Part shown: positions 13,220-51,791 of the stretch, piece by piece
Numbering within the stretch: position 1 is the stretch's first letter
Layout of the letters: each line of letters begins with the position of its first letter
Source of the DNA: an uncultured Pirellulaceae bacterium
Lineage (GTDB): Bacteria; Planctomycetota; Planctomycetia; Pirellulales; Pirellulaceae
Direction: 5' to 3'
Assembly: GCA_938010615.1 (NCBI GenBank)
Contig: CALLUY010000093.1
Span: 1-64,000 of the forward strand
DNA length: 64,000 bases
Position numbers and translations under genes: made by a program
The notes under the pieces: model-generated
Databases searched by the model: none
Told to the model about the DNA's origin: nothing
Seen by the model: only the letters and a program-made list of their open reading frames with translations

Positions 13220-13885
13220 CTAATCCGGGACGACAGTACCCGTATTCATCGAAGCAAAGCAAGATTCGGGTTCGCTGCGAAGCCGATGATCGGCGTGAAC
13301 TGCAGCGAAGCGAATCACTCCGGACAAATCGATCACGTATCGAGCGGGCATGGGTAAATCCCAATCCGAAGTCCCATTTGTTTCTGGAAGATCCAACCCT
13401 AAAGATCGCTCAGCTTCAATGACGTCCGGCGGCGTCTCCAACGTTAGCCCAAAACTTGTCGCTATCTGATTGTTGTGATCGTTGAGCACCGGAAAGGATA
13501 ATTCCAGTTCCTCCGCTGCGATGCGATTGAAGTTTTGGCGTTGCGGACACAACGCGACCAGCTTAGCTCCGTGGTGGGAAAACTTTTGAAAATGGTCCTG
13601 CAAAGCTTCCAGCTCCGCGAGGCAGTAAGGTCACCAGTTGCCACGGAACCAAGTCAGCACTAGAAAACGTTTGCCACATAATTCCTGTAGCGACTTGCTG
13701 CCATCATCCGTTTCGACGACATGGTGCATTGGCGCTGAATCTCCAACAGCAAGTGCTTGCCCTTCCGGTTTGGACGCGACAAGTCGATCAACGTGAGCGT
13801 TGAGCACTTCAATAACTTCAGGTGAAGTCGATCCCGTTTCAAATGAGTGTCTTATCTCGCGAAGACGTTGAGCCAATGTCGTCAT
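13220..13885 (-). CDS. Peroxiredoxin-like selenoprotein (UGA-encoded Sec85)
   Basis: Read through an in-frame TGA at 13631-13633, the gene gives one 221-residue AhpC/TSA-type peroxiredoxin. The recoded codon sits exactly where the first active-site cysteine belongs: WFRGNW-U-PYC, against WCPYC in the family. Upstream residues (VGDSAPMHHV, SLQELCGKRFLVLTWF) and downstream residues (GAKLVALCPQ, LSFPVLNDHNNQIATSFGL, DLPMPARYVIDLSGVIRFA) form one continuous thioredoxin fold in the same frame. A hairpin with a GGA loop starts 16 nt after the UGA. The likely role is thiol-dependent peroxide reduction. It ends a minus-strand run after a dehydrogenase/cytochrome gene and a zinc-ribbon gene. The alternative, a gene broken by a nonsense mutation, is less likely given the position. 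Confidence 0.85.
13604..13633 (-). promoter_or_regulatory. Candidate bacterial SECIS element (peroxiredoxin)
   Basis: Reading along the minus strand from the UGA, AGCT-GGA-AGCT forms a short stem-loop (arms 13604-13607 and 13611-13614), extended by a G-T pair and an outer CTGC/GCAG pairing. The apical G-G lies 20 nt from the UGA, within the usual spacing for bacterial SECIS hairpins. The pairing is weaker than in the second candidate at 51247-51264. Confidence 0.55.
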
Positions 13886-13906: not shown

Positions 13907-14320
13907 TCATTTGCGCTGAACGATACCCCAAAACCAACCAGCGACACGCCCATAGTTGTGAATCGCCGAAGCAACCAATATTACCAACAAAACAAACAGG
14001 ATCGGGAGCCCCACAAGCACCATCGCGATCTCAATTCTGATTCGCTGAAATGCGCCAAATACGACTGCGAAAAGTAAGGTGACCAGCAAGACGGATTTGA
14101 TTCCGAACCGAAGCTGAGAAACCTCATGCGGAGATTTTTCGATGCTCCGATATCGCTTCAGTTCGCGGAGTCCACAAATCTGTTGATCCGTCTGGCAATG
14201 AGGGCACTGAACAACATGGCCAGCTTTACCGATTGGCACTTTGAACTGAAGCCCGCACTGACAGGGAAACAGAAACTGCGTTTGCGTTTTCTTGAGTTCG
14301 GCCAATTGTTCTGTCAACAA
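13907..14320 (-). CDS. Zinc-ribbon membrane protein
   Basis: The 137-residue protein has an N-terminal CxCx15-20CxxC cluster (FPCQCGLQFKV, then VQCPHCQTDQQICG), typical of planctomycete zinc-ribbon proteins that resemble rubredoxin or FmdB-type knuckles. Two hydrophobic helices follow at about 75-90 and 95-118. It starts 9 bp after the stop of the dehydrogenase/cytochrome gene and ends 21 bp before the selenoprotein start, so the three probably form an operon. Function is unknown. Confidence 0.7.
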   Translation of the reverse strand: MLTEQLAELKKTQTQFLFPCQCGLQFKVPIGKAGHVVQCPHCQTDQQICGLRELKRYRSIEKSPHEVSQLRFGIKSVLLVTLLFAVVFGAFQRIRIEIAMVLVGLPILFVLLVILVASAIHNYGRVAGWFWGIVQRK

Positions 14321-50663: not shown

Positions 50664-51698
50664 TTAGCGACGCCTTCTTCGACTTGGACGCAATTCTTCT
50701 GCAGACAGTTCACCGTCTCCATTCTTGTCCAACGAAATCAACGTTTCTGATGCCGCTTCGATTTCACTTGCCGACAACTGCATGTCGCCATCTTTATCCA
50801 TCGCCGTGAAAGCTGGCATGCGGCTCAACATACGAGCAGCCCTATCGTCTCCCGATGGTCTTTCACCACGACCTTGCGCTGCAGATCGCGGCTTGGGTGA
50901 TTTGCCGCCAAGTTCATCCTCGATCGCGTCCGCAAGTTCATCCGGACTGAATCCTCGTGGACCCTTGTCGCCAGCGTACGCAATTTTGCCGTCTTTACCA
51001 ACAAGATAAATTCGATCGGGAAGCGACGCGTAGTCTTTCGATGCTTTGTTGTCGATATTGTCTAGCAGTGCAGGAATTTCCAAACCCATCTCATCAAGAA
51101 ACTTTTGGGCGACGTCACGTCGTTCTTCTGTCGTCACGGGCTGTTCGACATCTTTTCCGGCAGGTCTGTCGCTGTCGGCAGCGTGAGCTTCGCTGGTGTA
51201 GACAATGAAGAACTGAACTTTATCAGCGTACTTTGCTTGCATCTCTTTCAGTTGACCAACTGAACGTACGAAAGGCGGTCAAGTGCAGCTTCCGAATATC
51301 AATGCAACGGGTTGCTTGTCAGTAAAACTCGAAAGGGTAACTGTTTTGTTTTTGTCTCTGATTTCAGTCAGCGAAAAATCTGGAGCAGCATCACCAGCTT
51401 GCGGCGCGTCGCCGGAACCACCTCGGCGTCTGGATCCTGATTCCCAGTCCTTTTTTGAAAGCACGCCGTCGCCGTTTTTGTCCAGACTTTTGAGTCCCTC
51501 CTCGCCTCGCGTGTACTCCTCGGCAGTCACAGTGCCATCTTTGTCGGCGTCATATTTATTGGCGACGAATTCCCAGCCGCTGCCGCCTCGACCACCACCA
51601 CGATTTCGCTGAGCACTCACGTCATCGACCGGCACATGGATCGCAAAAACGATAGCCGCAGCAAGAAAAACCAGCCAACATCGGGAAGAAGAATTCAT
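50664..51698 (-). CDS. Iodothyronine deiodinase-like selenoprotein with EF-hands
   Basis: With UGA at 51279-51281 read as selenocysteine, the protein has 344 residues and Sec140. A signal peptide (about 1-30, ending VSAQ) is followed by two EF-hand loops (DADKDGTVTAEEY; DKNGDGVLSKKDW) and then a thioredoxin-fold domain. This carries LIFGSCT-U-PPF, IVYTSEAHAAD and LPDRIYLVGKDGKIAYAGDKGP, the hallmarks of the deiodinase family including the EAHA motif. Two more EF-hands (MDKDGDMQLSASEI; DKNGDGELSAEEL) end it. An AAAGGA box precedes the ATG at 51698. It is probably a secreted or periplasmic calcium-binding redox enzyme; halogen removal is inference. Confidence 0.92.
51247..51281 (-). promoter_or_regulatory. 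Bacterial SECIS element (deiodinase-like gene)
   Basis: On the minus strand, 14 nt after the UGA, TTCAGTT pairs perfectly with AACTGAA around the loop GGTC (stem arms 51258-51264 and 51247-51253, loop 51254-51257). The loop GGUC is the one bound by SelB in E. coli formate dehydrogenase mRNA, and the UGA-to-loop distance of 21 nt fits bacterial SECIS rules. Confidence 0.9.
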
Positions 51699-51791
51699 CG
51701 TTTGTCCTTTGAATGGAGAATACACACAGTATTAACCACGTGACGATCTCGAAGTGGCGACACATTTTCTTGATTTATTTGCGACGGAACG

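Follow-up and report, generated by a model that had tools for sequence, protein, structure and literature searches.

A peroxiredoxin-like gene with an in-frame UGA codon

The stretch of DNA that we analyzed (the window; 64,000 nucleotides from an uncultured Pirellulaceae bacterium) carries on its minus strand a gene for a peroxiredoxin-like protein that is predicted to contain selenocysteine (Sec). This gene (13220–13885) begins with an ATG at 13885, ends with a stop codon at 13222–13220 and encodes 221 residues. Codon 85 is UGA (13631–13633, minus strand) and occupies position 1 of a W-U-P-Y-C motif within the sequence W-F-R-G-N-W-U-P-Y-C. The codon at 13622–13624 (minus strand) specifies Cys88, the second position of UxxC, which lines up with the residue that is the peroxidatic Cys in peroxiredoxins. 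An initial annotation had located the TGA at 13631, at the first Cys position of a WCPYC motif, without stating the strand; its coordinates were right, and the strand is minus. Residues 1–42 (13760–13885, minus strand) constitute an N-terminal helical extension, and matches to solved structures start at about residue 40–45.

When the sequence from 13885 to 13220 was read with TGA as U, it contained a single internal UGA and a normal stop codon at its end. Under the standard code the UGA leaves two ORFs, of 84 and 127 residues, as in the mechanical ORF list, and standard annotation would split such a gene at this codon. We rejected the interpretation that these are two separate ORFs, as the downstream ORF would start with TTG and had nothing but its openness in its favor. 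Instead, the Pfam AhpC-TSA model spans residues 47–193 with the UGA included (5.4e-20, 72 bits, cut-off 26) and the Redoxin model likewise crosses the UGA. Thus, the earlier claim that the fold continues in frame across the TGA held, since the AhpC-TSA model covers both sides. The combination of a PF00578 domain and a UxxC motif, by which Prx-like UxxC selenoproteins are recognized, is present in this gene.

A search of 241 genomes from the same family identified homologues in 66. An internal TGA was found at 14 places, 13 of which (in 12 genomes) correspond to the U of the UxxC motif; the fourteenth, in a degenerate fragment in genome G166, lies outside the motif position. Our comparisons took 40 family homologues, namely all 13 with the motif UGA and 27 with Cys, and the G166 fragment was set aside. 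The best-scoring Cys form within the family is 37% identical to the window protein, and the first-listed plasmid Cys form is 39% identical. In a 22-row alignment every row has Sec or Cys in the column of residue 85, so that the TGA lines up with the leading Cys of the homologues' CxxC, and R81, G82, W84, C88 and R203 do not vary. A DNA pattern for F/Y-R-G-x-W-U-P-Y-C matched at least 119 stretches in a collection of 84,980 species. Among the 80 matches listed, all 80 proved to be related to the window protein in frame (weakest E value 1.3e-6), and 33 reached at least 90 bits against it. Judging from record titles, the taxa among the matches listed include Proteobacteria, Desulfobacterales, Acidobacteria, Phycisphaerae, Chloroflexi, Gemmatimonadetes, Rokuibacteriota and others. 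With at least 80 in-frame relatives across many phyla, this kind of protein is therefore widespread. The UGA-containing WUPYC pattern had no match among viral contigs. Back-translated patterns of the window protein identified no relative in genome contigs or viral contigs, presumably because these patterns use Cys codons and exact peptides.

A nonsense mutation, a pseudogene or a sequencing error could also place a UGA within a gene, and the organism is represented here by a single assembly that is 84% complete. However, the same UGA occurs in 13 genes of the family, including those of the nearest relatives, G115 (64% identity) and G043 (52%). Downstream of the UGA, the window gene and its G115 counterpart differ by 31, 21 and 64 substitutions at the first, second and third codon positions, respectively, with an amino acid identity of 0.70. 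In pairwise comparisons, change was biased to third codon positions on both sides of the UGA, and conservation persists 3′ of the TGA by the alignment as well as by this bias. The initial annotation had judged chance nonsense mutations to be unlikely, which agrees with the pairing of UGA with UGA in relatives and with the predominance of third-position substitutions downstream. Moreover, the copy in the single-contig genome G115 is syntenic, as the UGA gene is flanked there by a close relative of the window's methyltransferase gene and by a large cytochrome c domain gene that is 80% identical to that of the window over 574 amino acids. Because the UGA is conserved and the sequence beyond it has been under selection, an error or a pseudogene is refuted in practice, and we rejected an explanation whose probability is close to nil.

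In the window, a gene of 137 amino acids without a Pfam match (13907–14320, minus strand) separates the UGA gene from the cytochrome c domain gene. It had no match in the G115 stretch, where these two genes are immediate neighbors.

The initial annotation also referred to two UGA genes within 38 kb. The other is evidently an iodothyronine-deiodinase-like gene that is read from 51731 to 50667 (50667–51731, minus strand; PF00837, 97.9 bits), with its UGA at 51281, 37.65 kb away. Its U lies in the sequence FGSCTUPPF, EF-hand-like stretches are found on both sides, and a 7-bp hairpin with the loop GGUC is situated just 3′ of the UGA. This EF-hand/deiodinase-like combination may merit separate attention.

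A bSECIS-like hairpin within the coding sequence

Inspection of the sequence downstream of codon 85 revealed a bSECIS-like hairpin, GCGGAGCU-GGA-AGCUUUGC (13600–13618, minus strand), with 8 bp and the loop GGA. The hairpin starts 12 nt past the UGA, within the coding sequence, and its loop begins at 20 nt. The minimum free energy (MFE) was −13.4 kcal/mol for the hairpin region and −8.3 kcal/mol for the hairpin alone. The bSECIS model set out in a passage of PMC13188914 has a loop of 3–9 nt with G in the first two loop positions, a stem of 4–16 bp, an MFE of −7.5 or lower and a distance of 16–37 nt from the UGA to the loop. With a loop of 3, a stem of 8 and a spacing of 20, the window hairpin agrees with the model in this passage. 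Thus, the bSECIS prediction that had been suggested as a check on the gene yielded a model-conforming hairpin downstream of the UGA.

Hairpins of −4 kcal/mol or lower within the published geometry were found in 76 of 90 UGA genes compared with 4 of 27 Cys genes (p=1e-9), a contrast that in part reflects ancestry, because all 27 Cys genes come from one bacterial family whereas the UGA genes come from many phyla. No hairpin at −4 within the model was found in 14 of the 90 UGA genes, and 9 were without any. Three of the 80 pattern loci (L086, L107 and L140), with fewer than 25 codons after the UGA, are excluded from the hairpin sets. When folding energies were compared with those of synonymous recodings, UGA genes had a mean z of −0.88 and Cys genes one of −0.005 (p=8e-5). 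In 46 UGA genes, 79.2% of the cells of the helix were paired, versus 35.6–45.3% when the helix was slid by 1–3 columns. Seven of the eight pairs changed on both sides, and the covariation score was equalled in none of 500 shuffles. For the window hairpin itself, folding was modestly better than that of 2000 synonymous recodings (p=0.0235), and 27 of 200 shuffles of a 51-nt window stretch folded equally well. Support for the hairpin derives from the set of genes, and the contribution of the window gene by itself is modest.

Six further Cys homologues are encoded on plasmids. Some hairpin of −4 kcal/mol or lower was present in three of these (L183, L186 and L187), and none lay at the 19–20 nt spacing of the window-type UGA genes. 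The sequence E-[L/Q]-x-A-L immediately follows the motif in 38 of 45 UGA genes versus 4 of 33 Cys genes, an enrichment that may mean that the protein's helix sequence was shaped by the recoding hairpin. Among the plasmid Cys homologues, four with E-L-x-A-L at this place lack a hairpin at the window-type UGA spacing. A search of the whole window with Rfam at gathering thresholds returned one tRNA only (tRNA-His by ARAGORN), and no terminator-like site was found close to the window UGA gene.

Selenocysteine machinery and Cys/Sec interchange

The initial annotation made the case for Sec dependent on the presence of Sec machinery in the genome. In the genome of the window (G000, 84% complete), selA (552 bits, curated cut-off 267.9), selB (349.8 bits, curated cut-off 242.25), selD (262.6 bits, curated cut-off 125) and a tRNA-Sec (65.9 bits, gathering threshold 47; anticodon UCA by ARAGORN) all exceeded their thresholds. 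Among the family genomes, selA was over its cut-off in 120 of 241, including 10 of the 12 that carry the UGA form compared with 10 of the 54 that carry the Cys form only (Fisher p=4e-5). The two UGA-bearing genomes without selA are G138 (89% complete) and G141 (71% complete). In neither was selB over threshold; a tRNA-Sec match was found in G138 and none in G141. In genome G123, selA and selB were matched and tRNA-Sec was not. Five genomes with the Cys form were examined, of which G135 and G137 contain selB and tRNA-Sec, and G150, G170 and G030 contain neither.

The selD of the window's genome is part of a fusion ORF of 730 amino acids (L010 331–2523, contig C68), which lacks a UGA and has Cys in its SelD half. 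Its N-terminal half reads as an NADH-dehydrogenase-like oxidoreductase, and Ndh-SelD fusions are described in a portion of PMC2398784.

These findings bear on a rival reading, in which an altered code or the mischarging of a tRNA would have the UGA decoded as Cys or Trp; in its favor, most homologues have Cys at the UGA position. However, of 32 ORFs selected from the window (at least 200 amino acids each), 10 end in TGA as an ordinary stop codon, and therefore the code is not altered wholesale; an altered genetic code was rejected on this basis. Furthermore, the genome contains the full Sec set, which tracks the UGA genes across the family, and the hairpin distinguishes the UGA genes from the Cys genes. 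Decoding as Cys or Trp is therefore very improbable. We infer instead that the window gene encodes a true selenoprotein in which UGA codon 85 is read as Sec (probability about 0.95), a conclusion drawn from the position and conservation of the UGA, the hairpin and the machinery, all of which can be read directly from the DNA. In the mechanism that we propose, codon 85 would be decoded by SelB and tRNA-Sec, and the hairpin 12 nt downstream would aid decoding.

The most interesting part of our findings is the interchange of Cys and Sec inside one bacterial family. We constructed a quick tree from 78 rows (45 Sec and 33 Cys) with the trait residue masked. The 47 of the 80 pattern loci that scored under 90 bits were not used in the tree, in the structure alignment or in alignment A2, and L132 was also left out of the tree and the structure alignment. 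At least five Cys/Sec changes are needed on this tree, three of which are forced by starred branches; with a quick tree and a sampling that favors UGA genes, both the count of switches and their direction are provisional. As the UGA rows were gathered with a UGA pattern, the share of Sec in the tree is inflated. The Sec genes of the family are found at four separate places, which are the trio that includes the window gene (support 100), a clade of eight that includes the second copy from the window's genome (99), L054 grouped with a pair of Cys genes (99) and L053 bordering a Cys clade (100).

A second Sec-containing peroxiredoxin-like gene is present in the genome of the window (L050 893–1543, contig C83:34892–35515). 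It is 34% identical to the window gene, belongs to a different clade and has its own hairpin.

Dynamic exchange of Sec and Cys in bacteria is the subject of PMC1794560, as far as an excerpt of that paper indicates. We tentatively suggest that one planctomycete-type family has undergone several Cys/Sec switches, with both forms coexisting as paralogues and orthologues and with each Sec version possessing its own coding-region hairpin, although we would give this possibility somewhat less than even odds. If it is true, this set of genes would be a natural laboratory for when bacteria favor Sec over Cys. The occurrence of both forms among related genomes likewise provides a good natural experiment on why cells pay for selenocysteine.

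Fold, active site and predicted function

A structure model built on a 33-row alignment had a mean pLDDT of 95.4. Its best structural matches were Bcp/AhpE-type peroxiredoxins, with Z scores of up to 18.8 and an rmsd of about 2–2.5; for BcpB (5epf) the Z score was 18.8 and the rmsd 2.2 over 152 aligned residues. These matches cover the model from about residue 43, and two N-terminal helices lie outside them. In a profile search, the motif was aligned with those of the peroxiredoxin 2ywn (FYPAAFTQVC) and of ResA 3c71 (WCPHC).

Classical peroxiredoxins contain the motif PxxxTxxC plus a catalytic Arg. In the comparison with 2ywn, R81, U85 and P180 stand, respectively, where that protein has the Pro, Thr and Arg that we take to be catalytic, and Cys88 is at the position of the peroxidatic Cys. 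R81 was invariant in both alignments, with Arg in all 33 rows of alignment A3, and P180 is Pro in 29 of these 33 rows. The initial annotation had called the protein a peroxiredoxin with Sec in place of a motif Cys. The peroxiredoxin fold stood, whereas the peroxiredoxin active site did not, as Sec occupies the position of the catalytic Thr. A classical peroxiredoxin was rejected because Cys88 alone is kept while R81, U85 and P180 occupy the Pro, Thr and Arg positions. Against the model for SelL-related redox proteins (NF040769), the protein scored 30.1 bits, below the curated cut-off of 120.

The protein resembles Bcp/PrxQ and AhpE peroxiredoxins, as well as Sec-containing peroxiredoxins with TxxU, in its fold and in the position of Cys88, but it differs from them in that the catalytic Pro, Thr and Arg are replaced and Sec is located three residues before the peroxidatic position. 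It shares with ResA/TlpA-type oxidoreductases a W-C/U-P-x-C motif and a Pro before the last strands that align, although it did not reach the curated cut-off for ResA (47.6 of 170 bits). In ResA and thioredoxin this residue is the cis-Pro.

The same selenoprotein might act chiefly as a hydroperoxide peroxidase like the classical peroxiredoxins. The solved structures nearest to it in fold are peroxiredoxins, whose peroxidatic Cys is matched by Cys88 in the alignment, and a Sec could reduce peroxides directly. However, the replacement of Pro, Thr and Arg by R81, U85 and P180, with R81 and P180 conserved in the 33-row alignment as described above, makes a mainly peroxidatic role fairly unlikely. 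Since these residues are replaced, we favor a thiol-disulfide oxidoreductase; from the residues and the modeled fold, the protein is probably a thioredoxin/ResA-like enzyme on a peroxiredoxin scaffold. The residue replacements are evident from the sequence, whereas we infer the redox direction, substrate and partner of this oxidoreductase. The active site would be the U-P-Y-C, of thioredoxin/ResA type and placed where a helix begins, with Pro at the position of the peroxiredoxin catalytic Arg. Sec85 would act as the nucleophile, most likely attacking a disulfide or another oxidized substrate, Cys88 would resolve the selenenylsulfide, and a cellular thiol system would re-reduce the protein.

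Selenoproteins of the Prx-like UxxC type have appeared in the literature from 2005 at the latest. Portions of the respective texts describe a 'Prx-like protein' with 22 sequences from the Sargasso Sea (PMC1088965, 2005), 'Prx-like 1' (pfam00578) with 225 sequences in the Global Ocean Sampling set (PMC2398784, 2008), Prx-like UxxC selenoproteins in a 2022 review (PMC9312934) and a 'Prx-like thiol:disulfide oxidoreductase' in a 2026 review (PMC13188914). As depicted in these portions, the published proteins resemble that of the window in having an AhpC-TSA domain and UxxC in place of the peroxiredoxin TxxU, a likeness at the level of their descriptions. Unlike the window gene, none of the Prx-like UxxC proteins is placed in planctomycetes in the excerpts of PMC1088965, PMC2398784 and PMC13188914, and our search of the open-licence literature found no paper dedicated to a Prx-like UxxC protein in planctomycetes. 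Selenoproteins in planctomycetes are reported in an excerpt of PMC4807772. Thus, the type itself has already been predicted many times, and the window gene adds a well-supported member to it and gives a bacterial group with few catalogued selenoproteins one that is firmly supported.

UxxS is the motif given for a peroxiredoxin-like family protein (cd02970) in a table excerpted from PMC13188914, whereas that of the window protein is UxxC. The plasmid Cys homologues share the product name of that cd02970 entry, 'Peroxiredoxin-like family protein (AhpC/TSA)'. Two of these homologues, L182 and L184 (Pantoea and Methylobacterium), are situated between genes for a glutathione S-transferase and an SDR oxidoreductase, neighbors that hint at a redox or detoxification role.
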